Shown: positions 9,177-60,478 of the stretch, piece after piece
How the letters are laid out: every line of letters starts with the position of its first letter
How positions within the stretch are numbered: the stretch's first letter is position 1
NCBI GenBank assembly: GCA_036365145.1
Contig: JAEOAD010001942.1
Location: forward strand, 1,798,001 to 1,862,000
Length of the DNA: 64,000 bases
Direction: 5' to 3'
DNA from: Orientallactaga sibirica
Taxonomy: Eukaryota; Chordata; Mammalia; Rodentia; Dipodidae
Notes under the pieces: generated by a model
Databases searched by the model: none
Told to the model about the DNA's origin: nothing
The model's input: the letters and a program-made list of their open reading frames with translations, nothing else
Position numbers and translations under genes: made by a program

Positions 9177-9465
9177 GGGCTGGAGAGATGGCTTAGGGGT
9201 TAAGGCGCCTGCCTCCCAAGCCTAAGAACGCTGGTTCCAATCTCCAGCGGTTCCGATCTCCAGGTCCCACGTTTAGCCAGATGCAAAGTGACGCAAGGGA
9301 GCAATGCCGCACTTGACCACAAGGGGGCGCACGCATCTGGATTTCGTTCACAGCAGCTGAGACACTGCTGGCGCGCCCATCTCTGTCTTCCTCTCTCTCT
9401 CTCTCTCTCTCTTTCTCTTTCTGTCTCTCTCTGTGTGTCTCTCTCCAAAAAAAATTAAAAAAAAA
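9177..9465 (+). mobile_element. B2-related SINE type B
   Basis: Full forward copy with the type B block (GCAATGCCGCACTTGACC followed by ACAAGGGGGCGC), a CT tract and a plain A tail. It has a TGTCCTA target repeat on both sides (9169-9176, 9466-9473). Confidence 0.95.
9317..9330 (+). promoter_or_regulatory. CTCF-motif-like site in SINE type B
   Basis: CCACAAGGGGGCGC, close to the CTCF core consensus (CCASYAGRKGGCRC-type) with A in place of the usual Y. Motif match only. Binding is not shown. Confidence 0.45.
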
Positions 9466-9476
9466 ATGTCCTAAGA

Positions 9477-10002
9477 GGAGGGGAAGCTAGTACCATAGTT
9501 TGGATACATAGATATGTTGTGTCCATCCAATTACCCTGTAAGTGATTATTGTTAGACCCATAAAGGAGTGTTGCTCTCACTTTTGGTCAGAGAAGCTTCT
9601 CCTTGCAGACAGCAGTGACTGCTGGAGAAACTGAAAAGTCATCAAAGTGCTGAGAAGATGTGACAGTTAAGTGCTCGGTGTTAAGTGAGAGATCTTTATC
9701 ACACCCGCCAAGACTCAGGGAATTTTATGGAAGAAGCAGTGGGAAGAATGAAAGATCCAGAGAATGGGGAGGAGTGCTTTGGAAATGTCCTCTGGACACA
9801 AAGTGGCCATTGCATTCATAACCCCACAGTGGCTATTGTTACCTGCACAATACTGGGCCTGTCAATATATATCATTATAGTTGATGGGGGAAGGCAACAA
9901 CAAGAAGACCTCAAAGTAGAAGAGGGACTAGGGAAAAGAAAGTAATTGGAAGAGGATTATGATCAAAAAACATTATGAAAATTGTCAATAAAAATCAATT
10001 TT
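9477..10002 (+). mobile_element. L1 3' end, 5'-truncated
   Basis: Ends AATTGTCAATAAAAATC and includes the rodent L1 3' UTR-like stretch from GAGAAACTGAAAAGTCATC onward (about 9626-9985). The target repeat TGTCCTAAGA is at 9467-9476 and 10210-10219. A small open frame at 9685-9945 is part of this UTR, not a gene. Confidence 0.8.
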
Positions 10003-10208
10003 AGCTGGGTGTGGTGGTGCACGCCTTTAATCCCAGCAGTTGGGAAGCAGAGGTAGGAAGTTCAAGTTCATCATGAGTTTGAGGCCAGCCTGAGACTACA
10101 TGGTGAATTCCAGGTCAGCTTGGGCATGAACAAAACCCACCTTCAAAAAATCCAAAACAAAATAAAACAAAAAACCCAAAAATACCCAAAAATCAAGTTA
10201 AAAAAAAA
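10003..10208 (+). mobile_element. B1-like SINE in the L1 tail
   Basis: Forward B1 directly after the L1 tail, ending in a long A-rich stretch. It shares the outer target repeat of the L1. Confidence 0.85.
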
Positions 10209-10261
10209 GTGTCCTAAGACGGGGCCAAGGAGATGGATCAGCTGGTAAAGTGCTCAACATG

Positions 10262-10620
10262 TGTGACAGTTGGTCTCTGGTTGTCAACCTGACAGGATCT
10301 AGAATCACCATGGAAACATGTCTGCGAGGAATTTTCTAGGTTAGGTTAGTTGAGGTCTGAGGGCCCTCCTAGCTGTTGGATGCGCCATACCCTGGGCTGG
10401 GTTTCAGGACCGTATGACAAGAAGAAAGCTAGCTGAGCATGGAACATGCGTCTCTCTCCTTCCTTGCTGCTGATGTGATGGTAAGATGCTGGCTTCCTGT
10501 TCCTGCTATGCCTTCCTTGCCAAGATGGACTCTACCCTTTGGAACTGTAAGCCAAAATAATCTCTTTTCTTCTGTCATTTGCTACCGGTAGGGTATTTTG
10601 TCCCAGTTTCAAGAAAGAGA
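10262..10620 (+). repeat. 5' LTR of the MaLR provirus
   Basis: Starts TGTGACAGTTGG and ends just before the primer-site region. It carries the GTAAGCCAAAATAATCTC end common to MaLR LTRs here. Confidence 0.7.
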
Positions 10621-11104
10621 ATTGGTACTGAGAAGTGGGACACTTGTTATGGTAAACCTGACCACGTGGTCATTAGTCTTTTGGAACTGGTTGCAGGAGG
10701 ACTATGGAAGTATTTGTAATGTTAGATTAGACAAGCCTTACAATGCTGTAAACAGAGCTTGGGCCATCCTGGTGAGAGTTTGAAAGACCAGAAGGCCAAG
10801 AGCAATATGAACTCTGGAGATCTGACTCAACAGCTTCCAGAGGGGAAAAGGGATTTCACTGGGAACTGGGCTGAAGGCAGTCCATGTGATTGTGTTCTAC
10901 CCATGTCCTGAGAACTCGAATGACATTACGTTTAAAAGTGATGGCCTGACGTGATTGGTGGAGGAAAGTTCAAGGCAGACTGATATTGAGTCTGTGGTGT
11001 GGATTCTCTTAGTTGTTCTTACTCAGATCCACAATTAAAAAGAACAAAATACAGAGAAGAAAGGAATTAACATTGTGAAGATTGGCACAGAAACAAGTGA
11101 AAGC

Positions 11105-11476
11105 TGTAGAGAGCCGCAACCAATAGGAGCAAATGACATAGGCACAGCCATGTCTACCCCTAGCTGAACTGTTTGTACAGGCCTGATCTTGTACAGAAGA
11201 TAGCACATGCAGAAAAACAGTCTGCAGCTGCTTCATTCCTACATCATCTGACCTTGTCCCCTGGTCCCATGCTTTCTCTATATTTGATAAAAGAAAGTTG
11301 TTGCCAAAAGCTTTTCTGCTTGAGCATAAATTAAACCAACACTTGGTTAGGCCATGCTGCAGTGTCTCCAGCAGAGTCTGTAGACTACCTGATCCCAGCT
11401 TTCCCTCTATTGCTTGTGTCTGTCTTTCTAATTCTTGAGTTTCCCTTAACAGGTCATAGCCACACTAGTCACAGCA
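11105..11476 (+). mobile_element. Class II (IAP/ERVK-like) solo LTR
   Basis: 372 bp with TG...CA ends and a perfect 6-bp duplication GAAAGC at 11099-11104 and 11477-11482. A 6-bp duplication is typical of class II proviruses. The start (TGTAGAGAGCCGCAACC) resembles IAP-like LTRs. It lies in the MaLR internal part. Confidence 0.75.
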
Positions 11477-11563
11477 GAAAGCAAGTTTGAAGTCTTAGGC
11501 AAAGGAGCTGCAGCTGCTTCAGCTGTAACTGTCAAAGAGATTATCATCATTAATGATAAGACA

Positions 11564-11712
11564 GGGCTAGAGAGAGGGCTTAGCAGTTAAGGCACTTGCC
11601 TCTTAAGTCTAAGGGCCTAGGTTCAACTCTCCTGAACCCACGTAAGCCAGATGCACATGGTGGTGCGTGTGTCTGGAATTCATTTGCAGTGGCTAGAGGC
11701 CCTAGCATGCTA
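11564..11712 (+). mobile_element. B2-related SINE type A, left arm of an inverted pair
   Basis: Head and body of a forward SINE, cut off at CCTAGCATGC before its CT tract and tail. It faces a reverse copy 13 bp away. Confidence 0.9.
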
Positions 11713-11725
11713 TGGGGGGGGGGGC

Positions 11726-11881
11726 GGAGAATGGGTGTGCCAGGGCCTGCAGCTACTGCAAACGAACTCCAGATGCATGCGCCACCTTGTACATCTGGCT
11801 TACGTGGATCCTGGGGAATTGAACTGAGGTCCTTTGGCTTTGCAGGCAAGTGCCTTAACTGCTAAGCCATCTCTCCAGCCC
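11726..11881 (-). mobile_element. B2-related SINE type A, right arm of an inverted pair
   Basis: Reverse copy lacking its tail, so the two SINE bodies meet across a G-rich spacer (TATGGGGGGG...). Mirror-image open frames of 89 codons on the two strands reflect the palindrome. Confidence 0.9.
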
Positions 11882-11979
11882 TGAAAATTCTTTTGAAAAG
11901 AAAAGCCTAAAGAAAGAATGCTGAGGCTCCCTGCTCCTCAAGGTCAGCATCCAGAGACTGCTACAGCTGTGTTCCATGG

Positions 11980-12372
11980 TGTAGCAGACAGCTTCAGGTT
12001 CGCTGAGATGAACTTCCAGACCATGCAAAGTTATGGAGAAAGGGATTTATTGAAGCTTACAGATCCAGGGGAACTTCCATAATGGCAGAAGAAGCTGGCC
12101 TGCTTTTAAACGTAATGTCATTCGAGTTCTCAGGACATGGGTAGAACACAATCACAAGAAAGCAAAAGCACAAGCCAAAAGCCACACAGCAGAGCACACT
12201 TCAGGAACTCCAGCTAGGCACACTTTGCATATCTTTAGATTGAAATCTGAAACCCACCACCACACCTGAAGATCCGCCCAGTGACACTGCCTCCAGCCAG
12301 GTAGCTGCAGATGCAAACTACAAACTAATAAAACACTGACTATATCGGGGGCCACCTACTCAAACTACCACA
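11980..12372 (-). mobile_element. MaLR solo LTR
   Basis: A reverse LTR, TGTAGCAGAC...ACTACCACA, with a perfect 5-bp duplication CATGG at 11975-11979 and 12373-12377. The 5-bp duplication fits ERV-L/MaLR integration. Confidence 0.85.
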
Positions 12373-12949
12373 CATGGCAGAACTTGGCAGCACTGCTTAG
12401 ATGGTACCGGTTGTAGAAGAACAAAAGACACATGATTGAGGAGGTCACGGAATGCTGCATCATGTTTTCAGAGAGCTGCTGAGGCTAAGCAGTGTGAGGC
12501 CGGGCTGAAGTACCTGCAAGGAGATCACTGTGAGGCTACTGCATGAAGCTGTGAGGGTGAACTCTACATTGCAATGAAGACCTCAGAATGTTAGAGGTGT
12601 CAGTGCCATGGGACATCTGCTATGGGCTTAGGGTGGATCTGGCTACAGGCACCCCAGCTGGAAGGGCGGAGCTACCCAAGCTTTTTGGGGGCCCAGAAGA
12701 TTCCAGCATAAGTCCCAGATACTGGATATGGAGCTGCAAGATTTGGTGTTTGCCCTCCTGGGTTTCAGTCTTGCTTTTGTCAATGTCCTTGCTATGTCCC
12801 CATGTCTCTCTTTTGGAATGGGAATATTTATTCTGTGTCATTACATGTTAAAAGTACGTGACTTGTGTTTTGATTTTACAGGATACTCACAGTTAGTGCA
12901 TTAAGTCTCAGATGAGACTTTGGACTTTGTTTTAAGATGTTTTGTTTTT

Positions 12950-13222
12950 TCATTTTATTTTTATTTTTTGACTTTTTTTATTGACAACTTCTTTCATTGT
13001 AGACAATATCCCATGGTACTTCCCCTCCCTCCCTCCACTTTCCCCTTTGAAACTCCACTCTCCATCATATCCCCTCCCCATCTCAATCAGTCTCTCTTTT
13101 ATTTTGATGTGATGGTCTTGTGTAGGTAGTGTCAGCCACTGTGAGGTCATGGATATCCAGGCCATTTTGTGTCTGGAGGAGCATGTTGCAAGAAGTCCTA
13201 CCCTTCCTTTGGCTCTATTTTA
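12950..13222 (-). mobile_element. L1 3' end, 5'-truncated
   Basis: Starts TTTTTTATTGACAACTTC on the plus strand and parallels the copy at 6625. Flanks AAGATGTTTT and AAAATGTTTT are similar. Confidence 0.85.
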
Positions 13223-13235
13223 AAATGTTTTTTAA

Positions 13236-13430
13236 AATTAACTAAATTATTTATTTGAGAAAGAGACAGAGAAACAGAGACAGAGAGATAATAGGCATGC
13301 CAGGGCCTCTTGCTGCTGCAAAGGAACACCAGACACATGCACCACTTTATGTGTCTGCTTTTATGTGGGTGCTGGGAAATCAAACCCAGGCTAGTAGTTT
13401 TTGCAGGCAAGTGCCTTTAATCACTGAGCT
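13236..13430 (-). mobile_element. B2-related SINE type A
   Basis: Reverse copy with a degraded head (AATCACTGAGCTGC), in the MaLR internal region. Confidence 0.82.
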
Positions 13431-13459
13431 GCTTTGGACTTTTTCCTTTACTTTTTAAA

Positions 13460-13677
13460 TAAAAAAATATTTTATTTATTTACTTATTTGCAAGCAGAGA
13501 GAGAGTTGAAAGAGAGAGAGAGAATGGGTGCTCTCCAGAGCCTCCAGGTACTTCAAACAAACACCAGATGCATGTGCCACTTTGTGCATCTGTATTTTCG
13601 TGGGTACTGGAGAATCAAGCTTGGGTGGTTAGGCTTTGCAGGCAAATGCCTTAACTGTGGAGCCATTTCTCCAGCCC
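13460..13677 (-). mobile_element. B2-related SINE type A
   Basis: Reverse copy ending CCATTTCTCCAGCCC. Flanks resemble the MaLR sequence TTTGGACTTT. Confidence 0.88.
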
Positions 13678-13694
13678 AACTTTGAACTTTTAAA

Positions 13695-13940
13695 ACTATT
13701 TAAATTTTTTTAACTTTATTTTTGAGAGAGAGAGAGACAGAGAGAGAGAGAGACAGAGAGAGAATATGAGAGAATGGGCATACCAGGGCCTTTCAGGCAC
13801 TGTGAATGAAGTCCAGATGCATGCGCCCCCTTGTGCGCATGTGTGACATTGCATGCTTGCGTCACTTTTGCATCTGTCTACATGGGACCTGGAGATTCGA
13901 ACACGCATTCTTAGGCTTTGCAGGCAAGCGCTTTAACCAC
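13695..13940 (-). mobile_element. B2-related SINE type B
   Basis: Reverse copy with the type B block, including GCGCCCCCTTGTGC at 13823-13836, a slightly altered form of the CTCF-like motif. The head is missing. Confidence 0.85.
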
Positions 13941-14074
13941 TTTATTTCTTTATTTGTTTGTGAGTGATGGAGAGAGAAGCGTATGGGCACACCAGGGCCC
14001 CTTGTCTCTACAAACAAACTGCAGATGCATGTGCCACTTTGTGCATCTGGCTTTATGTGGGTACTGAGGAATCA
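13941..14074 (-). mobile_element. B2-related SINE type A, truncated
   Basis: Reverse copy that stops at GGAATCAAA, where MaLR 3' LTR sequence begins. Both partners lack their adjoining ends, which implies a deletion. Confidence 0.8.
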
Positions 14075-14271
14075 AATTGTGTGCTGGGGGATGGATCTGG
14101 AGGCTGCTTGCTCCACTTCTTCCCTGTGGCTATGGTGAGGGGAGCTAGATTTATGTTCTTTCCCCACCATAATGGACTCTACCCTTTGGAACTGTAAGCC
14201 AAAGTGAGCTCTTCCCTTTCCTAAGCTGCTTCTGGTCGGTATTTTGCTCCAGCAACAAGAAAATAACTGGC
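14075..14271 (+). repeat. 3' LTR of the MaLR provirus, 5'-truncated
   Basis: Matches the end of the 5' LTR. The first half is missing. Confidence 0.7.
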
Positions 14272-14666
14272 ACATTGAGCAGCATAAGGACCTGAATTGG
14301 ATCCCCAGCACCCATGTAAAAGCTAGGAATGGTGATAAATACCTCTAGTCTTAATGCTGGGGAGGTAGAGACAGCAAGATCCCTGGGGATTGCTAACTGG
14401 CTGGTCTAGCTGTATTGGTGAGTCCCAGGTTCAGAGAGAGATCTTGTTAAAAAAAAAAAATAAGGTGGAAAGTGGTTGAGAAGGACACCCATTATCAACC
14501 TGTGACCTCCACATACACACATACACACACACACCTACATACATATAAACACACCTATATGCACATATGCCACACATATAACCACGTGAAAAAACAGTGT
14601 CCTAGGAAAATTTAATTACTTTTTATTATATAGGACGCCATTGAAATGAATATAGATTGATGTACT

Positions 14667-14840
14667 TTATTATTTACTTATTTATTTATTGTCTTTTTGA
14701 GGCAGGGTCTTACTCTAGCCCAGGCTGACCTGGAACTCACTCTGTAGCTCCAGGCTGCCCTTGAACTTGTGGCCATCCTCCTCCTACCACAGCCTCCCAA
14801 GTGCTATGACTAAGAGGTATGTGACATCATACCAAGCTGC
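14667..14840 (-). mobile_element. B1-like SINE
   Basis: Diverged reverse copy with a (TTTA)n lead. Confidence 0.88.
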
Positions 14841-14894
14841 TTTATTATTTAATATGAATGTTAGGTTTGGTTGTTATCTAGCATGTCTGTCTTT

Positions 14895-15069
14895 TTGTTT
14901 CTTTTTTTGTTTGTTTGTTTGTTTTGTTTTTTTGAGGTAGGGTCTCACTCTAGTCCAGGCTGACTTGGACTTCACTATGTAGTCTCAGGGTGGTCTTGAA
15001 TTCACAGCAATCCTCCTACCTCTGCCTCCCCAGTGCTGGAATTAAAGGAGTGTGCCACCACACCCGGCT
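14895..15069 (-). mobile_element. B1-like SINE
   Basis: Reverse copy with a perfect duplication GCATGTCTGTCTTT at 14881-14894 and 15070-15083. Confidence 0.95.
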
Positions 15070-15083
15070 GCATGTCTGTCTTT

Positions 15084-15671: not shown

Positions 15672-15924
15672 GACAAGCCCAACAGACTGGCTTTTTTTTT
15701 TTTTTTTAAAGAGACAGAAAGAGAGAGAGAAAGAGAGAATGGGTGCGCCAGGGCCTCCAGACATTACAGTCAAACTCCAGACGCATGTGCCACCTTATGC
15801 ACATGTGCAACCTTGCGCACTTGTGTCACCTTGTGCATCTGGCTTGCATGGGACCCGGAGTCGAACTTGAGTCTTTAGGTTCCACAGGCAAGTACCTTGA
15901 CTGCTAAGCCATCTTTCCAACCCT
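15672..15924 (-). mobile_element. B2-related SINE type C
   Basis: Reverse copy with the type C block (ACCTTATGCACATGTGCAAC). The AAGCCCAACAGACTGGCTTT lead is shared with the type C copy at 58100. Confidence 0.82.
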
Positions 15925-15929
15925 ATTTT

Positions 15930-16403: not shown

Positions 16404-16450
16404 TCCTTTTAGTTTTTATTTATACCTTTTTAGTTTCTGTTGTGGGGGCA

Positions 16451-16849: not shown

Positions 16850-16872
<23 letters not shown>

Positions 16873-17258: not shown

Positions 17259-17269
17259 AACTATCACTT

Positions 17270-23058: not shown

Positions 23059-23065
23059 TTTTTAG

Positions 23066-23332
23066 GGCTGGAGAGATGGCTTAGCAGTTAAGGCACCTGC
23101 CTCCTAAGTCTAAGAACACTGGTTCCAATCTCCAGCGGTTCCAATCTCCAGGTCCCACGTTTAGCCAGATGCAAAGTGATGCAAGAGTGCAATGCCGCAC
23201 TTGACCACAAGGGGGCGCACACATCTGGATTTCGTTTGCAGCGGCTGAGAGGCTGCTGGCGCGTCTATCTCTATCTGTCTTCCTCTCCCTCTCTCTCTCT
23301 CTCTCTGTGTCTCTCTCCAAAAAAAAAAATTT
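23066..23332 (+). mobile_element. B2-related SINE type B
   Basis: Forward copy, closely similar to the one at 9177, with the CTCF-like motif and a plain A tail. Confidence 0.95.
23205..23218 (+). promoter_or_regulatory. CTCF-motif-like site in SINE type B
   Basis: CCACAAGGGGGCGC, identical to the site at 9317. Confidence 0.45.
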
Positions 23333-26332: not shown

Positions 26333-26612
26333 AAATTTTTTTTATTATTTTTTATTTATTTTTGGAGAGAGAGACAGAGAGAGATAGACAGGGAGATGGA
26401 GACAGAGATGGGCGCGCCAGCAGTCTCTCAGCTGCTGTGAACGAAATCCAGATGCGTGCGCCCCCTTGTGGGCAAGTGTGGCATTGTCCCTTGCCTCACT
26501 TTGCATCTGGCTAAATGTGGGACCTGGAGATTGGAACCACTGGACATTGGAACCAACGTTCTTAGGCTTAGCAGGCAGGCGCCTTAGCCACTAAGCCATC
26601 TCTCCAGCCCTC
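26333..26612 (-). mobile_element. B2-related SINE type B
   Basis: Reverse copy with perfect duplication GATTTAAAGGATT at 26320-26332 and 26613-26625. It has an internal repeat of the GGAACCACTGGACATT kind, also seen in the copy at 49540. Confidence 0.95.
26458..26471 (-). promoter_or_regulatory. CTCF-motif-like site in SINE type B
   Basis: GCGCCCCCTTGTGG on the plus strand is the complement of CCACAAGGGGGCGC. Confidence 0.45.
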
Positions 26613-30330: not shown

Positions 30331-31029
30331 AAAAAATATTAGCTGGTTTACTTATTTCTCTTAGAACATTCTCAGGCACCGCAGAGCATGTGCTGCTTGC
30401 TACAGGCTCTGGGGACTCGCCATGCCTACAACGCAGCATGATGAGCAGGAAAAACTCTGGATGAAGCCATTCCAGCTGTAAAGGTGCAGTCATTCCAGAT
30501 GAAGGGATACCTGGACAAAAACAAGCTGATGGGTGCTCCAAAACATGCTTCCAGACTTCTATGTTATCACCAAAGAGTTGCAATGAACTTGATATGGCTA
30601 TTTCTGATGAATTGCACTGCTTGGAGGTCTGCCTGACAGATGAATTTGCTAAAGGAAAAAAAGTAGCAGGTCTCTATGAATATGAACTTGTGCAGTATGC
30701 TGGAAACATCATTCCAAGGCTTCCAGGAAAGATACTTTGAAAGATTTGATAGAAATGGGCCGAGCTGTGCAGTGTCTATTGAGGGGTATATTTCTTCAAA
30801 ATTATCTTCTTCAATGTACCAGAAACATTTTACCTGAGGAAGGAGAGCCAACAAATGAAGAAACAACTGGTGATATCTGTGATTCCATGGATTTTGTATT
30901 ACTCCACTTCACAGAGGTGAACAAGGTGTGAGTGCGACTGCAGCATCGAGGACAGAAAAAGAGAAACACAAGAACTGAGAATTTTAGTGGGAACAAATTT
31001 GGCGTGCCTTAGTTGAAAAGTGTCAGTGT

Positions 31030-31269
31030 GGGGCTGGAGAGATGGCTTAGCGGTTAAGGCACCTGCCTGCAAAGCCGTTCAAATCTGCAGGTCCCATGTA
31101 GAGCCAGTCGCAAAAGTGACGCAAGCGTGTAATGTTGCACATGCGCACAAGGGGGCGTCTGGAGTTCTCTCACAGTGGCTGAAAAGCCCTGGTGGGCCCA
31201 TTCTCTCTCTACCTCTTCCTCTCTCTCTCTCTCTCTCTGTCTCTCTCAAAAACTAAAAAAAAAAAAAAA
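31030..31269 (+). mobile_element. B2-related SINE type B inside the Vps35 pseudogene
   Basis: Forward copy with flanks GAAAAGTGTCAGTGT (31015-31029) and GAAAAGTGTAAATGT (31270-31284). The CTCF-like site here is altered (GCACAAGGGGGCGT at 31145-31158). Confidence 0.93.
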
Positions 31270-32662
31270 GAAAAGTGTAAATGTAGAACATGACAGATTA
31301 TTTTAACAGGTATTTTGGAGCAAGTTGTGAATTGTACGGATGTTTTGGCTCAAGAAAATACCTCATGGAGTGTATTATTCAGGTTTTTCCTGATGAATTC
31401 CATCTCTAGATTTTGAATCCTTTTCTTAGCGCTTGGGCTGAGTTACATCAACATGTAAATGTGAAAAACATAATTATTGACTTACTTGACAGTTTCGCTT
31501 TCTTTGCTCATCGTGAAGATGGACCTGGTATCCCAGCAGAGATTAAAGTTTTTGACCTATTTTCACACCTGGTGGCTACAGTGATACAGTCTAGACAAGA
31601 CATGCCATCAGAGAACGTTGTCTCTTTACAAGTCTCCCTCATTAATTCTGCCATGAAACGTTACCCTGATTGTGTGGACTATGTTGATAAAGCTCCAGAA
31701 GCAACAGTGGAGACATTCAAAAAGCTTAACCTTGAACATATTGCTATCAGCAGCACAGTTTCAAAGGAGTTTACCAGACTTTTGAAGATACCTGTTGATA
31801 CTTAGAATATTTTAACAGTTTTGAAATTAAAACATTTCCACCCACTCTTTGAGTATTTTGACTATAAGTCCAGAAAGAGCATGAGTTGTTATATGCTCAG
31901 TAATGTTCTGGATTATAACACAGAAATTGTCTCTCAAGACCAGGCAGATTCCATAATGAATTTGGTGTCCACATTGATTCCGCACCAGGCAGACCAACCT
32001 ATGGAAGACCCTGATCCAGAAGACTTCGCTGATGAGCAGAGCCTTGTCGGCCGATTCATTCATCTATGGTCTGATGACCCCGGTCAACAGTACTTGATTT
32101 TGAACACAGAGCGACATTTTGGAGCTTGTGGAAACCAGTGGATTTGGTTCACACTGCCACCTTTGGTATCTGCAGCTTACCAGCTGGCTTTTGAATACCA
32201 AGAGAATTCTAAAGTGGATGACAAGTGGGAAAAGAAATGCCAGGAGATTTTTTTTTCATTTGCTCACCAGATGATCAAAGCTGAGCTGGCTGAGTTATCG
32301 CTGAACTTATTTCTTCAAGGAGCTCTGGCTGCTGGAGAAATTGGATTTGAAAATCATGCAACAGTAGCATATGAATTTCAGTCCCAGGCATTTTCTCTGG
32401 ATGAAGATGAAATCAGTGATTCCAAAGCACAGCTGGTTGCCATCACCTTGATCATTGGTACCTTTGAGTGGATGAAGTGCTTTAGAATCAGGAGCCCCTG
32501 AGGACTCGTGCACTTGCTGCATCAACACTGCTGAAAACCCTGACCAAGTTTGAGCTGTGAGCTTCTGAGCACATTTCTCTGGTCTGGCAGCAACTCCAAC
32601 AAAAACAGGGAGGAACTTCACGGAGACAAAAGGGTCATACAGTGCCTAAAGAAAGCTCTAAA

Positions 32663-34489: not shown

Positions 34490-34714
34490 TAATTTTTTCA
34501 ATTTATTTATTTATTTGTAATTTTTTAATGAGAGAGAGAGAGAGAATTGGTATGTCAGGGCCTCCAGCCACTGCAATCAAACTCCAGACACATGCACCAC
34601 CTTGTGTGCATGACTGACCTTGTGCGCCTGGCTTACCTGGGACCTGGATGGTTGAACATGGACCCTTAGGCTTCACAGGCAAGCACTTTAACCGCTAAGC
34701 CATCTCTTCAGCCT
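34490..34714 (-). mobile_element. B2-related SINE type C
   Basis: Reverse copy with the type C block (CACCTTGTGTGCATGACTGA). Confidence 0.88.
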
Positions 34715-35238: not shown

Positions 35239-35498
35239 TTATTTATTTATTTTTTATTTTTGGAGAGAGATACAGAGAGAGAGACAGAGAGGGAGAGGGA
35301 GACAGATAGAGATGGGTGTGCCAGCAGTCTCTCAGCTGCTGTGAATGAAATCCAGATGTGTGCGCCCCCTTGTGGTCAAGTGCAGCATTGTGCCCTTGTG
35401 TCGCTTTGCATCTGGCTAAACGTGGGACCTGGAGATTGGAACCAGGTTCTTAGGCTTAGCAGGCAGGCGCCTTGACCGCTAAGCCATCTCTCCAGCCC
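35239..35498 (-). mobile_element. B2-related SINE type B
   Basis: Reverse copy with a perfect 18-bp duplication CAGCAATACTGATTTTAT at 35221-35238 and 35499-35516. Confidence 0.96.
35362..35375 (-). promoter_or_regulatory. CTCF-motif-like site in SINE type B
   Basis: Complement of CCACAAGGGGGCGC, intact. Confidence 0.45.
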
Positions 35499-35671
35499 CA
35501 GCAATACTGATTTTATCTGCTGTGCTGAAGTTTCTGACTCCCAGCTAGATCCTGGAGTGAGGGACTTCTTTCCCTTCCTGTGTCCCCTTAGTTTTTATTT
35601 CTTTTTCAATCCTGTTTCACAAGTATCAATGGTGGTCTTGTCTTTGAAGCAATCCTTTAAAACTTCTTTTC

Positions 35672-37441: not shown

Positions 37442-37704
37442 TATTATTATTATTATTTTTATTTTTAGAGATAGTAAGAGAGAAAGAAAGAGAAAGGCAG
37501 AGAGAGAGAGAGAGAGAGAATTGGCATGCCAGGGTCTTAGCCACTGCAATTAAACTCCAGATGCTTGTGCCACCTAGTGGGCACATGCGACCTTGCGCTT
37601 GCCTCACCTTTGTGTGTCTGGCTTATATGGGATCTGGAGAGTGGAACATAGATCCTTAGGCTTCGCAGGCAAGCACCTTAACTGCTAAGCCATTTCTATA
37701 GCCC
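37442..37704 (-). mobile_element. B2-related SINE type C
   Basis: Reverse copy with a (TTA)n lead and the block GTGCCACCTAGTGG, inside an older SINE. Confidence 0.88.
37567..37580 (-). promoter_or_regulatory. CTCF-motif-like site in SINE type C
   Basis: On the minus strand it reads CCACTAGGTGGCAC, a full match to the CTCF core consensus as I know it. No binding evidence. Confidence 0.5.
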
Positions 37705-37814
37705 ACATGTACTACTTTTTGCATCTAGTTTTATATGGGTACTAGGGAATCGAACCTAGGCCAACAGGCTTTGCAAGTATGTTCCTTCAACAATTGAGCC
37801 ATTCTCCAGTCCTG

Positions 37815-40354: not shown

Positions 40355-40892
40355 TTGCGTGCATTTGTATGTGGGTGCACATACACGTGTAAACGTGTGT
40401 GGAGGCCAGAGGTCATCAGTGTTTTCCTTGATTGCTTTCTACTGTATTCATTTATTTACTTATTTTTGTGGTTTTCTAAAAAATTTATTTTGTGTGTGAG
40501 AGAGAGCTAGAGAATGGGTGGGCCAGGGCCTTCGGCCACTGCAAACTAACTCTAGACACAAGGTGTGCCCCCTTGTGCCCATGTGCAACATTGTGCACTT
40601 GTGTCGCTGTGTGTCTGGCTACGTGGGACCTGGAGATTCCAACATAAGTTCTTAGGCTTCGCAGCAAGTGCCTTAACCACTAAGCCATCTCTTCAGCCCA
40701 TCTGTATTTATTGAAATAAGGTCTCTCGCTGTTTGGCTAGCCAGCTTGCCTCAGGGATCCACCTGTCTCTACCTCTCAAGCACTAGGATTCCAGGCTTGC
40801 TCCACGACACCCAGCATTGATGTGATGAAGATCCAAACTCATGTTTTCATAATTGAATGGCAAGCACTTTACTGCCTGGGCCATCTCCCCAG
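40355..40892 (-). mobile_element. Old B3-like SINE, interrupted
   Basis: Reverse element from a GTGTGGAGGCCAGAGGTCAT start to GGGCCATCTCCCCAGTA, split by a type C SINE. Confidence 0.65.
40448..40699 (-). mobile_element. B2-related SINE type B/C intermediate
   Basis: Reverse copy with GTGCCCCCTTGTGC (40565-40578), a degraded CTCF-like site, and a type C-like block after it. Confidence 0.85.
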
Positions 40893-43821: not shown

Positions 43822-44070
43822 AGATTTTTTTTTTTTTTTGAAGAGAGACATAGAGAGACAGAGAGAGAGGGAGAGAAAGACAGATAGAGAATGGGTGTGC
43901 CAGCAGCCTCTCAGCCTCTGTAAACAAACTCCAGATGTGTGCGCCCCCTTGTGGGCAAGTGCGGCATTGCGCCCTTGCATCACTGGCTAAACGTGGGACC
44001 TGGAGATTGGAACCTGCGTTCTTAGGCTTAGCAGGCAGGCACCTTAACTGCTAAGCCATCTCTCCAGCCC
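43822..44070 (-). mobile_element. B2-related SINE type B in the provirus
   Basis: Reverse copy with TCAGGTTTTTTTT / CCAGGCTTTTTTT flanks. Confidence 0.92.
43941..43954 (-). promoter_or_regulatory. CTCF-motif-like site in SINE type B
   Basis: Complement of CCACAAGGGGGCGC, intact, inside the provirus. Confidence 0.45.
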
Positions 44071-44099
44071 CAGGCTTTTTTTAAAAAAAACCAACTGGG

Positions 44100-45674: not shown

Positions 45675-46165
45675 AAAATACATGATGGGATGGCTGCCCA
45701 TTTACATGTAATAAACGCAGGGGGCATATTTGGGTATGTGGTAGATTTGCTTGGCAGTATCTCCTCACTAAGTGGACAAGACGAATGTACTTGGTGATGT
45801 CCATACATATCTGGCTGAATCCTTACCACTCTCTCATCTTGGCCACATAATTAGGATGTTATAATACATCACTAGCATCAAAGCCACCACTGAGCTGCTC
45901 ATGCCACATGGCGGGTTTTATCTGATGGCTGTATTTGTCCCTGGGGCAGGCACAATAGTCATAGAATTACAAGTAGAAACCCTTCCCCAACACGTAGCAC
46001 AATCCTTGAACATTCTTCAGCACATACTTGACGTACTGTTAGATGAGACTACTCAGATGTAACCCACGTGGTGTTACAGAATAGGATGGCCTTAGATTTA
46101 CTCACGGCTGCCAGGGGGTAGTGGGGGGGAACCTGTGCTCTCTTATATATAGAATGCTATATGTA

Positions 46166-46415
46166 GGGCTGGAGAGATGACTTAGCGGTTAAGCGCTTGC
46201 CTGTGAAGCCTAAAGGACCCCGGTTCGAGGCCCGATTCCCCAGGACCCACGTAAGCCAGATGCACAAGGTGGTGCATGCATCTGGAGTTCGTTTGCAGCG
46301 GCTGGAGGCCCTGGTGCACCCATTCTCTCTCTTTCTGCCTCCTTTTCTGTCTGTTGCTCTTAAATAAATAAATAAAGTACACTTAAACAAACAAATAAAT
46401 AAAAGTACATTTACA

Positions 46416-49539: not shown

Positions 49540-49794
49540 CTTTTTTTTTAGAGAGAGAGACAGAGAGAGAGGGAGAGGAGGACAGGTAGAGATGGGCACA
49601 CCAGCAGTCTCTCAGCCGCTGCGAACAAAATCCAGATGTGTGCGCCCCCTTGTGGTCAAGTGCGACATTGCGCCCTTGCGTCACTTTGCATCAGCTAAAA
49701 GTGGGACCTGGAGATTGGAACCACTGGAGATTGGAACCAGCATTATTAGGCTTAGGAGGCAGGCACCTTAACTGCCAAGCCATCTCTCCAGCCC
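49540..49794 (-). mobile_element. B2-related SINE type B
   Basis: Reverse copy with the doubled GGAGATTGGAACC unit that also marks the copy at 26333. Confidence 0.93.
49642..49655 (-). promoter_or_regulatory. CTCF-motif-like site in SINE type B
   Basis: Complement of CCACAAGGGGGCGC, intact. Confidence 0.45.
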
Positions 49795-50014
49795 GGAAAA
49801 TTCATTTTAAACTACTGTCCAATATTTCAGGAATGCAAAAAATTAAAACACACACACAGTGCTTACATATCTATCTACCAGGGTGAAGACATGAAGCTGC
49901 AAATTCAAAGTGGCTTTGTAATATGTCATCAACTTGGCTGGACTGAATGACATTCCCCAGAACTACCCTCTCTGTAGATTCCTGCTTCAGGAATGTTACA
50001 AGAAATGTTTTCTG

Positions 50015-51912: not shown

Positions 51913-51948
51913 AAAGAAAAGAAAAGAAAAGAAAAGGAAAGAAAAAAG
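51743..51948 (+). mobile_element. B1-like SINE with (GAAA)n tail
   Basis: Forward copy landed in the A tail of the previous one and ending in AAAG/AAAAG repeats. Confidence 0.9.
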
Positions 51949-52178
51949 GGTCTGGAGAGATGGCTTAGCAGTTAAGGCACTTGCTTGCAAAGCCTAAGGA
52001 TCCATGTTTGACTCTCCAGAGCCCATGTAAGCCAGATGTATAAGGTGATGTAAGGGCATGGGGTCTCACATGTGCACAAGATGGCACATGTGACTGGAGT
52101 TCAATTGTAGTGGCTGGAGGCCCTGTCGCACCAGCTCTCTCTTTCTTCCCCTCCCATAGAAAAAGAAAAAAGAAGAGT
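51949..52178 (+). mobile_element. B2-related SINE type C
   Basis: Forward copy with the type C block (GGGTCTCACATGTGCACAAG), in the B1 tail. Confidence 0.85.
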
Positions 52179-53604: not shown

Positions 53605-53611
53605 CAGATGC

Positions 53612-54445: not shown

Positions 54446-54690
54446 CTTCAATAAATAATATCCCTTCCTCTTGCCAGTGCTTTGGCAACCCCTGTGGTGG
54501 TTTCTCCTGTTGCTGTTGTCCACCTGATGTTGGCCAGGAGGTGATGTCCACCCTCTGCTCATGTCATTGTTTTCCCCTGCCATCATGGAGCTTCCCCTCA
54601 AGTCTGTAAGCCAAAATATACCTCCCCCCGCACACATACAAGCTGTTCTTGGTCATGTGTTTTCTGCCAACATTGAGCCTGACTGCAACA
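54287..54690 (+). mobile_element. MaLR LTR
   Basis: 404 bp, TGTGGTGGTTTGAG...GACTGCAACA. It matches the reverse LTRs at 61698 and 62700. It overlaps the right end of the tandem duplication, so its left part may be rearranged. Confidence 0.75.
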
Positions 54691-55217
54691 ATTCCCTATC
54701 CATACTCATACAAGTAACAAAAATTCTTTGTTGGATAACTTTAAAACCATGTCTGTGTTTTCTTTTCAATTATTAAAAAAGTCACATATTCATCATAAAA
54801 ATCAAAAAGGTAGTCAGAGAGATAGGGAAGGGTGGGCACTCCCAACAGGTAAAGGGCACAAGGGCATGCCAGCACCCTCACATTCCCAGTCAGGGATCTC
54901 AGTGTTGGATTCATGACAAGGGTGCCCACACCTCCCCCACGACCAATGTGGGAACACTTGCTTCACTTTTAGGAAATATTAACAGCCTCTGCTCACTTGA
55001 TTAAGCTAATGAAACAGTGTACCCCAAAAGATCATTCATGCAGCATTATCGCTTGCCATCAAGTGTCCTGTACTAACTAACTGAGGTGCTGGGAATCCAT
55101 ACTGGGTAAAATCAACCAATCAGACTTTTCAAGGTATCTGTTCTAGACTAAAGCTCTGGGGATCAACAATTGATTGCAAACTTTAAAAGATCCTACATTT
55201 ATGTCTTCCCTTTAGAA
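54691..55217. other. No recognisable feature
   Basis: Unique-looking sequence. Confidence 0.45.
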
Positions 55218-55441
55218 TTTCAACTGGAAAAGTTGCTCAGTTGTTAGACCGCTGGCCTAGCATGCCGGCCCTGGGTTTGATCCCAGCATCACACAAGCTG
55301 GGTGAAGTAGTGCATACCTACAATCTCAGCACCTAGGAGGTAGAGACAGGTGAATCAGAAGGTCAAGGTCTTCCTCAGCTATATAGTGAGTTCTAGGCCA
55401 ACCTGGACTACATGAGATACTGTCTCTAAAAAATAATAAAA
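55218..55441 (+). mobile_element. B4-like composite SINE
   Basis: ID-like head (AAAGTTGCTCAGTTGTTAGA...GGGTTTGATCCCAGCATC) then B1-like part ending GATACTGTCTCTAAAAAATA. Confidence 0.7.
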
Positions 55442-55649
55442 TAGGGATGAAGAGATAGCTTAGTGGTTAAGGTGCTTGTCTGTGAAGCCTAAGGACCCAA
55501 ATTCAATTCCCCAGGACCCACACAAGCTAGATGCACAAGGTGGTGCATGCATCTGGAGTTCGTTTGCAGTGGTTAGAGGCCCTAGCATGCCCATTCTCTC
55601 CCTCCCTCTCTCTCTCTCTATCTGCCTCTTTCTCTCTCTCTCTTTCAAA

Positions 55650-55688
<39 letters not shown>

Positions 55689-55708
55689 AATAATAAAATA
55701 AAAAACGA
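55442..55708 (+). mobile_element. B2-related SINE type A with long (AATA)n
   Basis: Forward copy landed in the B4 tail. Confidence 0.92.
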
Positions 55709-55744
55709 TTTAGCTAGACTATCACATCACATATATAGACAGAA

Positions 55745-56010
55745 AGTTTTAAAATCAACTTTATTGAGATATAATTTCCCTATAATAAAATTCATGCAAT
55801 TTCAAGTATACAGTTTGTTGAGTTTAAAAAAAAATATGTACATACCATGTAATCCACTCCATTGTCAAGCCACAGGTTTCCATCACCCCAGAAAATTCTG
55901 CCATACCACTTCCCAGTCAATCTCTCTTTACCCCAAACACTAATCAGCTCTCTGTTCTTCTAGATTAGACCTGTCTTCCTTAAGTTTCCATGTAAATGAA
56001 ATCAAAGATT
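55745..56010 (-). mobile_element. Ancient mammalian L1 3' end
   Basis: ACTTTATTGAGATATAATTT, then CCATCACCCCAGAAAATTCT and TTTCCATGTAAATGAAATCA, in the order of the old L1M-type 3' end (reverse). These predate rodents. Confidence 0.82.
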
Positions 56011-56267
56011 ATGTGTTCAGTTCTGTGTATGATGTGTGCACATGTTCATGTGTGGGTAAGTAGGTGGTGTAAGTGCATGTGTGTGTGTTTTGGAGACCGG
56101 AAGTGTTGTTTCTCTCAGATACCATCCACCTATTTTTGAGATGGAGTGTCTCATTGTCATGGAGCTTGCCAATTAGGCTAGACCAGGTGGCCAGCGAGCC
56201 ATGGGAATCTGCCTGGCACTGCCCCTTCCATGCTGAGATTACAAACTTGCAACATGGCACCCAACTG

Positions 56268-56447
56268 GTTGTTTTTTGGTTTGCTTATTTGTTTGTTTGG
56301 CTTTGGTTTTTTGAGGTAGGGTCTCGTTCTAGCTCAGGCTGACCCGGAATTAACTATGTAGTCTCAGGGTGGCCTTGAACTCATAGTGATCCTCCTACCT
56401 CTGCCTCCCAAGCATGGGATTAAAGGCGTGCACCACTATGCTTGGCT
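56268..56447 (-). mobile_element. B1-like SINE
   Basis: Reverse copy with (TTTG)n lead. Confidence 0.92.
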
Positions 56448-56460
56448 CACACTCAACTTA

Positions 56461-56692
56461 AAATTTTTTTAAATATATTTATATATTTATTTATTTATTT
56501 GAGAGAGAGAAAGAGGCAGAGAGAGAGAGACAGAGAATGGGCGTGCCAGGGCCTCCAGCCACTGCATACAAACTCCAGACGCGTTTGTGCCTCTTTGTAC
56601 ATCTGACTTATGTGGGTTCTGGTGGAGAATTGAACTGGGATCCTTTAGCTTTGAAGGCAAATGCCTTAACCTCTAAGCCACCTCTACAGCCC
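56461..56692 (-). mobile_element. B2-related SINE type A
   Basis: Reverse copy with CTCAACTT flanks at 56453-56460 and 56693-56700. Confidence 0.92.
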
Positions 56693-56865
56693 CTCAACTT
56701 TTTTCTTATAGTGGGTTCAAGGCATTGAACTTAGGTCCTTATACTTGCATAATAAGCATTTTACCTATAAAGTCATTTTCTCAGCCCCACTATATACTCT
56801 GTTAGTTTTTCCTCATCTTAAGGTTTTTGAGGGTCATTGATATTGTTGCATGTACTGATATCATT

Positions 56866-56869
56866 CATT

Positions 56870-56916
<47 letters not shown>

Positions 56917-57048
56917 TCTGAGGTAGGGTCTCACTCTAGCCCAGGCTGATCTGGAACTCACTCAGTAGTTTCAGGGTGGCCTCGAACTTACACCTCCTAC
57001 CTCTGCCTCCCGAGTGCTGGGATTAAAGGTGTGTGCCACCACGCCTGG
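56866..57048 (-). mobile_element. B1-like SINE
   Basis: Reverse copy with a long (TTTA)n lead. Confidence 0.92.
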
Positions 57049-57272
57049 CTATTTATTTTTTTTAAGAGAGAGCAAGAGAGAGAGAATTAGCATGCTTGGG
57101 CCTCAGCCACTGAAATTGAACACCAGATGCTTGTACCACCTAGTGGGCATATGTGACCTTGCACTTGCCTCACCTTTGGGCATCTGGCTAATGTGGGATA
57201 TGGAAAGTAGAACATGGGTCCTTTGGCTTTGTAGGCACGTGCCTTAACCACTAAGCCATCTCTCCAGCTCTC
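57049..57272 (-). mobile_element. B2-related SINE type C
   Basis: Reverse copy with GTACCACCTAGTGG at 57133-57146. Confidence 0.88.
57133..57146 (-). promoter_or_regulatory. CTCF-motif-like site in SINE type C
   Basis: Minus strand reads CCACTAGGTGGTAC, one change from the site at 37567. Confidence 0.42.
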
Positions 57273-57284
57273 ATTAATTCTTTT

Positions 57285-57605
57285 TTATGCACGTGTGTAT
57301 GTGTGTTCACATATGTGAATGCATGTGCCTGTGGGGGGGGGTGGCTAGAGGACAACCTTGGGGAGTTATCTTCAGGAATATTGTCCATCTTCTTTTAGGC
57401 AGGGTCTCTCATTGGACTGGAGCTCACCAATTACTTTAGACTGGCTGGTTAGTGAGTCCTAGGAATCCACCTGTGTCCATCTCCCTGATACTGGAATTAT
57501 AGTCATATGCCACCACATCCAGAAATTTTACATAGATACTGGGGATTGAACTTGAGACCTCATGTTTGAGAGACAAACTCTTTGCTGACTACTCTATCTC
57601 CCTGG
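57285..57605 (-). mobile_element. Old B3-like SINE
   Basis: Reverse element, TG-rich start (GTATGTGTGTTCACATATGT) to TACTCTATCTCCCTGG. Confidence 0.65.
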
Positions 57606-57615
57606 TCAAATAGAA

Positions 57616-57670
57616 TTCTTTTTCCTTCCTTCTTTTCTTTACTTTTCTTTTCTTTTCTTTTTTCTTTCTC

Positions 57671-57737
<67 letters not shown>

Positions 57738-57968
57738 TTGGAGAGAGACATAAAGATTGGGAGAGGGAGACAGTTAGACAATGAACATGCCAACAGCCTC
57801 TAAACCCCTGTGAATGAACTCCAGACACATGCGCCCCCTTGTGGGCAAGTGAGGCATTGCACCCTTGTGTCACTTTGCGTCTGGCTAAATGTGGAACCTG
57901 GCGATTGGAACCAGTGTTCTTAGGCTTAGCAGGCAGGCACCTTAACTGCTAAGCCATCTCTCCAGCCC
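57616..57968 (-). mobile_element. B2-related SINE type B with (TTTC)n tail
   Basis: Reverse copy whose A tail has become about 110 bp of TTTC/TTTTC units (57625-57738). Confidence 0.92.
57831..57844 (-). promoter_or_regulatory. CTCF-motif-like site in SINE type B
   Basis: Complement of CCACAAGGGGGCGC, intact. Confidence 0.45.
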
Positions 57969-58099
57969 ATTCATTCTTTATTTTTCCATGTGTATGTGAG
58001 TGTGGTGTGTATGTGTATGGACACACATGTGTTTGCACATTGGTATGGAGGCCATAGATGGATATTAGGTGTGTCCCTCAAGTATTATACACCTGATTT

Positions 58100-58371
58100 T
58101 TTTTTGAGGCACGCCCAACAGACTGGCCTTATTTTTTATGTGAGGGAGCAAAAGCAAGCAAGAGAGAGAAAGAGAGAGAGAGAATTGGCTGCTAGGGCCT
58201 CCAGTCACTATAATCGAACTCCAGATGCATGCGCCACCTTGTATGCATGTGTGACCTTGCACACTTGTGTTACCTTGTATGTTTTGCATACATGGGAACT
58301 GGAGAGTCAAACATGGGTCCTTAGGTTTCACAGACAAGTGCCTTAACTGCTAAGCTACTTCTCCAGCCCTC
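58100..58371 (-). mobile_element. B2-related SINE type C
   Basis: Reverse copy between CACCTGATTT at 58090-58099 and 58372-58381. GCCCAACAGACTGGCC near its start is shared with the type C copy at 15672. Confidence 0.92.
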
Positions 58372-58381
58372 CACCTGATTT

Positions 58382-58595
58382 AAATTTTTTTTTTAAATTT
58401 TCAAGCAGAGAGAGAGAGTAAGAGAGAGAGAGAGAGAGAAAATGAATGGGCGCACCAGGGCCTCCAGCCACTGCAAATGATCTCCAGATGCATGTGCCAC
58501 TTTTTACATCTGGCTTTACGTGGGTACTGGGGAAATAACTCAGGTCATTAGGCTCTGAGATAAGAGCCTTAATCCCTGAGCAATCTCTCTAGCCC
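58382..58595 (-). mobile_element. B2-related SINE type A
   Basis: Reverse copy between CACCTGATTT at 58372-58381 and 58596-58605. Confidence 0.93.
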
Positions 58596-58605
58596 CACCT
58601 GATTT

Positions 58606-58887
58606 AAAAAATTATTTATTTATTTATTTTTAAAATTTTAAATTTTTTTTGTTTTTGGAGAGAGACAGACAGAGAGAGGGACAGGGAGACAGATAGAGAA
58701 TGGGCGCCCAGCAGTCTCTCACCTGCTGTGAACGAAATCCAGATGTGTGCGCCCCCTTGTGGGAAAGTGTGGCATTGCACCCTTGCATCACTTTGCATCC
58801 GGCTAAACGTGGGACCTGGAGATTGGAACCGGGTTCTTAGGCTTAGCAGGCAGGTGCCTTAACCGCTAAGCCATCTCTCCAGCCCCC
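58606..58887 (-). mobile_element. B2-related SINE type B
   Basis: Reverse copy between CACCTGATTT at 58596-58605 and 58888-58897. Confidence 0.94.
58749..58762 (-). promoter_or_regulatory. CTCF-motif-like site in SINE type B
   Basis: Complement of CCACAAGGGGGCGC, intact. Confidence 0.45.
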
Positions 58888-59273
58888 CACCTGATTTTTT
58901 GAGACAGTCTTGTACTAAACCTATGTCTCACTGATTGGGCTAAACATGCTCCCATCTCTGCCTCCACCCCGGCCCCAGCACTGGCGTTGTGTGTGCTGCC
59001 AGACCAGGCTTTTACATGGGTTCTGGGGATCATAACTCAGGTCCTTATGCTTGTATGGCAAGCACTTTGCCAGCAGAGCCATTTCCCAACCCCTAGTTCA
59101 TTCTTTCAATTGTGGAGTGTTAGTTTACGTTATGAACAAACCACATTTTGTTTATCCAATCTCTTGTTGACAATCCATGCAAATGGTCTGCCTTTTTAGT
59201 CCTTACAAAGAATGTTACTAAAACCATATGTTTATATTTCTCTTAGGTAAATGTCAAATTAATAGTGTTGCTG

Positions 59274-59472
59274 CAGCTGGAGATATGGCTTAGCTTAGTG
59301 GTTAAGGCACTTGCCTGTGAAGCCTAAGAACCCAGGTTTGGTGCCTTAGAACCCATGTAAGCCAAATGCACATAGTGGCACATGCATTTGGAGTTCATTT
59401 GCAGTGCCTAGAGGACCTGGCATGCCAATTCTCTCTCTCTCTCTCTAATAAATAAATAAATAAAAATAAAAT
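59274..59472 (+). mobile_element. B2-related SINE type A
   Basis: Forward copy. AATAGTGTTGCTG at 59261-59273 and 59709-59721 encloses this and the next SINE. Confidence 0.93.
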
Positions 59473-59708
59473 TTAGAGCTGGAGAGATGGCTTAGCAATT
59501 AAGACGTTTGCCAGTGGAGCCAAAGGACCCAGATTTGATTCCCCAGGACCCACGTAAACTAGATGCACAAGGTGGCACATGCATCTGGAGTTTGTTTACA
59601 GTGACTGAAGGCCCTGGCATGCTCATTCTCTCCCTCTCTTTCTCTCTCTCTCTCTGCCTCATTCTATCTCTCTCTCTCTCAAATCGATAAAATAAAATAA
59701 ATTTAAAA
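59473..59708 (+). mobile_element. B2-related SINE type A in the previous tail
   Basis: Forward copy that landed in the A-rich tail of the preceding SINE. Confidence 0.93.
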
Positions 59709-59760
59709 AATAGTGTTGCTGAACCATAGGGTAAGTACACATTTTTAGTGAAGATTTGAA

Positions 59761-59890
59761 CATCTTTTTTTAAAAAATATTTTATTGTTTAAATTATTTA
59801 TTGGAGAGAGAAAGAAAGTGAGTGAATTCCAGGTCAGCCTGGGCTAGAGTGAGACCCTATGGGGGTGAGGGTGGGGGAGAAAAAAACATT
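59761..59890. mobile_element. SINE/B1 deletion junction
   Basis: The tail and purine start of a reverse type A SINE (59761-59819) join the last third of a forward B1 (GAATTCCAGGTCAGCCTGGG). The bodies between are gone. Confidence 0.75.
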
Positions 59891-60213
59891 AAAAAATTAA
59901 GAGATTATGGCATCTGCAATCAACAATGTTAAATATGGAACTTGTGTAATAATAGTGAGAATCATTCCACTGATCTTCCTAAAAAGAGGACTTCTAATTT
60001 CACTAATAAGAACATGAAGGAGGTTAGGAAATCTCCAAAACAGTTGTCCACTTACATAACTAGACCAGCTCGACAACTGGGGAAAAGCCAAGTTAAAGTG
60101 TACAAGGTGGTCTATCACAGAGAGTTCATCAGCCCATCCTAAATCCCTGATATAGAAATCAACAGTCTCCTAAAAGTGGGGACTATGGCATGGCAAATAA
60201 AGAAAGTGAAATG

Positions 60214-60478
60214 GGGCTGGAGAGATGGCTTAGCGGTTAAGGCGCCTGCCTGTTAAGCCTAAGAACCCGGTTCCAATCTCCATCCAGGTCCCACGTTTAG
60301 CCAGTTGCAAAGTGATGCAAGGGCGCAATACCGCACTTGCCCACAAGGGGGCGCATGCATCTGGATTTCGTTCACAGCAGCTGAGAGACTGCTGGCACAC
60401 CCATTCTCTGTCTCCCTCTCCCTCTCTCTCTCTCTGTCTCTCTCTGTGTCTCTCTCCAAAAATAAAAAAAAAATTAAA
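60214..60478 (+). mobile_element. B2-related SINE type B
   Basis: Forward copy with AAGAAAGTGAA repeated on both sides (60201-60211, 60480-60490). Confidence 0.94.
60341..60354 (+). promoter_or_regulatory. CTCF-motif-like site in SINE type B
   Basis: CCACAAGGGGGCGC, intact. Confidence 0.45.

Follow-up and report, generated by a model that had tools for sequence, protein, structure and literature searches.

Expansions of CTCF sites carried by retroelements have been documented in mouse, rat, dog, and opossum (PMC3368268). Approximately 39,000 mouse B2 copies (32%) carry CTCF or ADNP sites (PMC8136502), and the full 33-bp CTCF motif is reported for the majority of binding events at rodent B2 elements (Schmidt et al. 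2012, PMC3368268). Fingers 9–11 of CTCF contact a second motif, most commonly spaced 5 bp 5′ of the 19-bp core (PMC12885311, PMC9004084, PMC3368268), for which Spec-seq yielded the optimum TGCAATACCC (PMC10287918). Dip is a short interspersed element (SINE) specific to Dipodidae (PMC8466645), and the present analysis concerns its insertion-bearing subfamily Dip_b in a 64,000-nucleotide stretch of the Orientallactaga sibirica genome (C778:1798001-1862000), referred to as the window.

The sense strand of Dip_b probably holds a two-part CTCF recognition site, so that retrotransposition would have seeded directional sites, a fraction of them occupied as boundaries or loop anchors. Like the B2 and B3 elements of mouse and rat (PMC3368268, PMC8136502), Dip_b is a tRNA-derived B2-superfamily SINE with a two-part CTCF site at fixed spacing. 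The best match in working consensus sequences of mouse B2 and B3 lies on the antisense strand and reaches 13.5–13.7 bits, whereas that of the Dip_b consensus lies on the sense strand, at an 18-bp repeat, and reaches 19.6 bits. Because strand and place differ, the Dip_b site was apparently not inherited from B2, and we infer an independent origin. The parallel with muroid B2 drawn in the first-pass annotation accordingly holds for SINE-borne CTCF-type sites as such, and not for the site itself. At sequence level, its proposal of a B2-superfamily lineage that bears CTCF-type sites, in two versions (types B and C), and has amplified them is borne out by the occurrence of the words genome-wide. 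The dog SINEC_Cf is likewise a lineage-specific SINE with a CTCF core; its expansion is reported to centre solely on the core, whereas type B of Dip_b joins the core to an upstream motif (PMC3368268). Dip_b would thus add a further, apparently independent retroelement CTCF expansion, in a sister rodent lineage to mouse and rat. Searches of open-licence literature on CTCF together with jerboa, Jaculus, or Dipodidae brought up no report of CTCF sites in Dip, and for the mouse B2 CTCF word the literature occurrence checked was a primer sequence.

Dip_b copies and their two-part sites

The core was scored with a working version of the JASPAR MA0139.1 matrix (column sums of 908–913 are consistent; consensus TGGCCACCAGGGGGCGCCA), with the 14-nt literature core CCNNNAGGGGGCGC (PMC10287918) as a matrix-free control, and the upstream 9-mer, which in the 33-bp two-part site stands 5–6 bp from the 19-bp core, was scored against the degenerate TGCARTDCC, devised in this analysis to cover the published forms. 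The nine type B words CCACAAGGGGGCGC stand exactly where they had been placed, at 9317, 23205, and 60341 on the plus strand and at 26458, 35362, 43941, 49642, 57831, and 58749 on the minus strand, as do the type C words CCACTAGGTGGCAC (37567, minus) and CCACTAGGTGGTAC (57133, minus). Three further forms, described as altered type B, are also present (GCACAAGGGGGCGC at 13823, minus; GCACAAGGGGGCGT at 31145, plus; GCACAAGGGGGCAC at 40565, minus), and these fall outside the B clade in the tree and do not read as decayed B copies. All 14 positions lie inside SINE copies; four additional insert-bearing copies (15726-, 34533-, 51948+, and 58171-) had gone unnamed.

In the matrix scan, which had been set as a test beforehand, the B and C copies of the window scored far above type A; with this separation, and with the words present genome-wide, the scores are not too low for the proposal. 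The 12 best 19-mers of the window on either strand all lie in insert-bearing Dip copies, namely the nine of type B, the two of type C, and 40501-, with p-values of 2.5e-8 to 1.1e-6. Type B cores reach 17.7–21.8 bits (p 2.5e-8 to 5.8e-7), type C cores 20.4 and 16.6, and that of 40501- 16.8, against a Dip_a ceiling in the window of 8.9 bits (p ~6e-5); type C, which had been taken as the better match, does not surpass type B. Ten matrix matches at p<=1e-6 compare with a mean of 0.27 and a maximum of 2 in 60 first-order Markov simulations. The control gave the same picture, as the published core CCNNNAGGGGGCGC with at most one mismatch occurs ten times (nine exact) vs a shuffle mean of 0.40, none of 100 shuffles reaching ten, and every fixed position of this core is matched at 9/9 type B sites.

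Two features escaped the first-pass annotation: an upstream motif at the canonical distance, and the probable origin of the insertion by tandem repetition. Type B copies carry YGCAATGCC or a near form exactly 5 bp from the core, with three copies each at 9/9 and 8/9, two at 7/9, and one at 6/9, and the form in 60212+, CGCAATACC, is one change off the published optimum TGCAATACC. At the same spacing, the eleven of 65 Dip_a stretches whose best core exceeds 5 bits score 2–4/9, and 0.7% of all 9-mers in the window score 7/9 or more. When the published upstream optimum and core were combined, nine matches with at most three mismatches were found (eight type B and 13823), vs 0/100 shuffles. The insert-bearing copies are as follows, with positions on the window, scores in bits, and upstream matches out of nine.

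9176..9392, plus: Dip_b b2 copy; two-part site 9300-9332, core 21.82, upstream AGCAATGCC 8/9 at 5 bp
23063..23279, plus: Dip_b b2 copy; two-part site 23188-23220, core 21.82, upstream TGCAATGCC 9/9
26399..26611, minus: Dip_b b2 copy; site 26456-26488, core 19.63, upstream 7/9; 13-bp flanking repeat like a target-site duplication
35301..35500, minus: Dip_b b1 copy; site 35360-35392, core 21.82, upstream 6/9; 20-bp flanking repeat like a target-site duplication
43879..44071, minus: Dip_b b1 copy; site 43939-43971, core 19.63, upstream CGCAATGCC 8/9
49582..49795, minus: Dip_b b2 copy; site 49640-49672, core 21.82, upstream 7/9
57769..57969, minus: Dip_b b1 copy; site 57829-57861, core 17.69, upstream TGCAATGCC 9/9
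58687..58887, minus: Dip_b b1 copy; site 58747-58779, core 18.16, upstream TGCAATGCC 9/9; 13-bp flanking repeat
60212..60416, plus: Dip_b b1 copy; site 60324-60356, core 17.69, upstream CGCAATACC; 12-bp flanking repeat
37507..37706, minus: type C copy; site 37565-37597, core CCACTAGGTGGCAC 20.39, upstream 6/9; separate clade
57075..57271, minus: type C copy; site 57131-57163, core CCACTAGGTGGTAC 16.62, upstream 7/9
13767..13942, minus: intermediate insert-bearing copy; core GCACAAGGGGGCGC 12.45, upstream TGCAATGTC 8/9
31029..31213, plus: intermediate copy; core GCACAAGGGGGCGT 10.21, upstream 6/9
40501..40701, minus: intermediate copy; core GCACAAGGGGGCAC 16.81, upstream 5/9
15726..15924, minus: least-derived insert-bearing copy; three tandem 18-bp units, 36-base insertion (2 x 18), best CTCF score 6.67
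58171..58371, minus: little-derived insert-bearing copy; three units at 18-bp period, CTCF score 3.65
51948..52146, plus: insert-bearing copy; core GCACAAGATGGCAC 10.82, upstream 3/9
34533..34714, minus: insert-bearing copy with one unit fewer; core 8.87, upstream 5/9

A profile search delimited 83 Dip-like stretches in the window, fragments counted, comprising these 18 and 65 Dip_a; a scan against Rfam gave no match at gathering scores. The published consensus being a figure, the elements were identified from the accompanying text description as Dip SINEs of the B2 superfamily, of jerboas and their kin: type A corresponds to Dip_a, type B to Dip_b with its published 34-bp insertion, and type C to a sister lineage that also bears the insertion. 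The hallmarks given for Dip_b are a 34-bp central insertion and T as the opening base of the beta signal, while a box-B duplication of 16 bp marks the variant Dip_b2 (Vassetzky et al. 2021, PMC8466645); type B shares these three features and the polypyrimidine tail. Between ATG/TTG and CACAAGG, 34 extra bases were counted in copy 60212+ and 36 in 15726-. GGT precedes the beta signal in 9/9 type B copies, and the 16-bp doubling of box B (the b2 variant) is seen in 4/9 (9176+, 23063+, 26399-, and 49582-). The insertion is common to types B and C and the altered forms, so that type C and the intermediates represent finer divisions than the two published Dip_b variants (PMC8466645). In a crude search, flanking repeats of 12–20 bp adjoin the start in 4/18 insert-bearing copies, with one of 10 bp in one more. 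The remaining copies have shorter or displaced repeats or none at all, an outcome that the age of the copies or the crudeness of the search would explain.

Aside from these copies, a Dip_a copy at 46164-46336 on the plus strand has overlapping B boxes (GGTTCGAGGCCCGATTCC) and is one letter off the published Dip_a2 diagnostic string (PMC8466645). Dip density is far higher in the window, at 83 stretches per 64 kb, than in arbitrary stretches of the genome, at 35 per 84 kb. A CTCF-type site outside Dip, at 3965-3983 on the plus strand (16.35 bits, upstream TGCAAAGCT 7/9 at 5 bp), is a candidate ordinary CTCF site.

Origin of the insertion and of the two lineages

The least-derived copies point to the source of the insertion. 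In 15726-, the Dip_a unit GCACAAGGTGGCACA recurs three times at an 18-bp period, matched at 14, 13, and 14 of 15 bases, and none of 5000 shuffles gave a second or third unit as good; 58171- shows the same period with 11, 11, and 12 of 15. The type C copy 37507- has retained the second unit (P 0.0002) and not the third (P 0.17). Borderline values for the second unit were obtained in 13767- (P 0.057) and 60212+ (P 0.049), neither of which has a significant third. An independent Dip copy from the same genome (L008 ~430-713, minus) carries a GCACAAGGTGGC-type unit eight times in tandem, and thus the 18-bp stretch does expand in this manner. We infer that the insertion of the whole family consists of two extra tandem copies of an 18-bp SINE unit, as is seen in the least-derived copies, with the middle unit apparently having given rise to the upstream motif and the last to the core. 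The main text of the paper describing Dip_b (PMC8466645) does not contain ‘ctcf’, ‘insulator’, or ‘triplicat’, and the passages and part of section 2.5 consulted give no origin for the 34-bp insertion.

In a phylogenetic tree, type B forms one clade (24 rows, 99/91) and type C another (100/97), with the intermediates between B and the rest (midpoint root; 18/39 inner branches weak); one fetched copy, L007 1-156, being the same as the L006 2266 copy, was left out of the tree and of the CpG and core-retention counts. The intermediates look like less-derived relatives whose core is itself intermediate. At the first base of the core, G predominates among the least-derived and intermediate copies whereas B and C both have C, so this key change was most likely acquired twice, in B and C separately. 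Starting from an idealised ancestral 33-mer, B gained 6.9 bits in four core changes (random-substitution P 0.0018) and C 7.7 bits in five (P 0.0006); these tests are post hoc, one ancestral base is tied, and the real least-derived copies score 3.7–10.8 bits vs 12.7 for the idealised ancestor.

Genome-wide abundance, preservation, and strand

Exact words were searched on both strands of the 2.82-Gb genome (2163 contigs), with the same patterns reversed as controls. The type B core CCACAAGGGGGCGC occurs 54,494 times, CCACAAGGGGGCAC 20,216 times, the type C core CCACTAGGTGGCAC 5,640 times, and the strict two-part pattern YGCAATGCC-N5-TGMCCACAAGGGGGCRC 31,415 times, vs 0 or 1 for the controls. CCACAAGGGGGCAC and CCACAAGGGGGTGC are the two decay words of the core CpG, TG vs CA. 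At 8/8 genome loci fetched, the type B word sits in a Dip_b copy. Its genome mean is 19 per Mb; the nine in 64 kb are ~7x as dense, in a Dip-dense region. Among Dip copies of ~120 bp or longer in the 84 kb of arbitrary stretches, for which the insert-bearing profile model had been rebuilt after the window search, a core at p<=1e-6 is present in 0/26 Dip_a and 2/6 Dip_b, which indicates that strong cores go with Dip_b.

Within the window, the 14-mer core is kept in 9/9 type B copies, with non-CpG changes at 0/108 core positions vs 50/1224 elsewhere (P=0.029), and the core CpG is kept in 9/9 vs 40/94 other CpGs (P=0.0008). The CpG counts leave out type C, the intermediates, and copies scoring <=150 (including L001 2614, with the core CTACAAGGGGGCAC). 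Transposable element-derived loop anchors elsewhere carry signatures of hypomethylation (PMC6979391), and for this reason the preservation in the window merits attention. In six unselected genome copies, non-CpG changes run in the same direction (2/70 in the core vs 62/810 elsewhere).

The predominance of the minus strand between 26 and 59 kb, to which the first-pass annotation attached importance for loop direction, is a real run of six minus sites and an ordinary one, since a run of at least six arises among nine random strands with P ~0.075. Genome-wide, type B cores divide into 27,212 forward and 27,282 reverse, and the first 100 sites of contig C1 among the matches listed form 51 runs vs 50.9 expected, the longest being seven. 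In the window, insert-bearing copies number 5 plus and 13 minus (P=0.096), Dip_a 29 and 36, and the 12 strong sites 3 and 9 (P=0.146); the 2 plus and 11 minus copies of the 26–59.5 kb subset (P=0.022) belong to an interval picked after seeing the data.

Expected occupancy and alternative explanations

The N-terminus of CTCF arrests cohesin. On a Dip_b copy, fingers 3–7 would dock on the core and fingers 9–11 on the upstream motif, and the N-terminus would then face the A-tail of the element. Retrotransposition would then have seeded directional sites through the genome and, by analogy with mouse B2 copies, a fraction may be occupied in vivo with a boundary or loop-anchor role. Binding, orientation effects, and boundary role are here predicted from sequence. 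Sensitivity to methylation resides in a CpG at position 2-3 of CTCF cores (PMC10287918); the Dip_b core has CA there, and therefore methylated copies may still bind CTCF.

Several observations weigh against this reading. The upstream motif of type C at 5 bp is partial (6/9 and 7/9), and the least-derived insert-bearing copies have poor CTCF scores, at best 3.7–10.8 bits. With strong cores in 2/6 unselected Dip_b copies, many copies would have lost the core or never had it, a result that made us marginally less confident and lent each alternative a still smaller increment. In the unselected copies the core CpG is kept in 1/5 scorable cases vs 17/65 other CpGs, and in 100 two-part sites among the matches listed, with a pattern permitting one decay product per CpG, it is kept in 68 cases compared with 63 for the upstream CpG and 59 for the spacer, no significant excess. 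The evidence for core preservation is mixed, being strong in the window with no clear genome-wide sign.

The alternative that survives best, and which we consider unlikely, is that the motifs are real and mostly silent, with ADNP (in the ChAHP complex), DNA methylation, or heterochromatin occupying or closing Dip_b and few copies bound by CTCF. In the mouse, ADNP competes with CTCF on B2 and binds >13,000 copies in embryonic stem cells (PMC8136502). CpGs outside the Dip_b core have decayed (~26–46% kept), which suggests germ-line methylation, and occupancy of all 54,494 exact cores would be extraordinary. Yet mouse B2, with a weaker core (working consensus), is widely bound by CTCF (PMC8136502), the Dip_b core is free of the sensitive CpG, and a strong upstream motif lowers the sensitivity to methylation (PMC10287918). 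Chance hitch-hiking, in which successful subfamilies happened to be marked by neutral diagnostic changes that resemble the motif and have no role, is quite improbable. In its favour, a small number of key changes is involved (G-to-C at base 1 of the core, T-to-G, and two in the upstream motif), and the core CpG of the 100 listed sites shows no significant retention excess. Against it, both parts of the site in B, and the cores of B and C alike, have moved closer to the motif, the gains from the idealised ancestor are rare under random substitution (post hoc), and the upstream part lies at exact canonical spacing.

A bolder extension of the proposed directional CTCF sites in Dip_b is conceivable, if doubtful. 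The SINE may have built a complete two-part CTCF site from its own 18-bp repeat, refined it step by step in two sister lineages, and spread ~80,000 near-consensus directional sites (54,494 + 20,216 + 5,640 exact core words), many of them working, in which case the fold of jerboa chromosomes would be founded for the most part on a single retroelement, and affinity for CTCF would have contributed to the success of the subfamilies. If the sites do function, Dip_b would offer a site stronger than that of the working mouse B2 consensus, with a readable origin, namely internal tandem repetition followed by few point changes per part. The series from Dip_a through the least-derived insert-bearing and the intermediate copies to B and C could serve as a natural experiment on what the core and the upstream motif contribute to occupancy, boundary function, and competition with ADNP. 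It would also raise the question of how a genome keeps its loops despite tens of thousands of added directional sites.

Apart from the SINEs, pieces of VPS35 (Pfam PF03635) lie in neighbouring open frames at 30465-32501 on the plus strand in a processed-pseudogene-like arrangement, and 31806-32498 matches the PDB VPS35 entry 7bln_A with an E of 2.3e-121.

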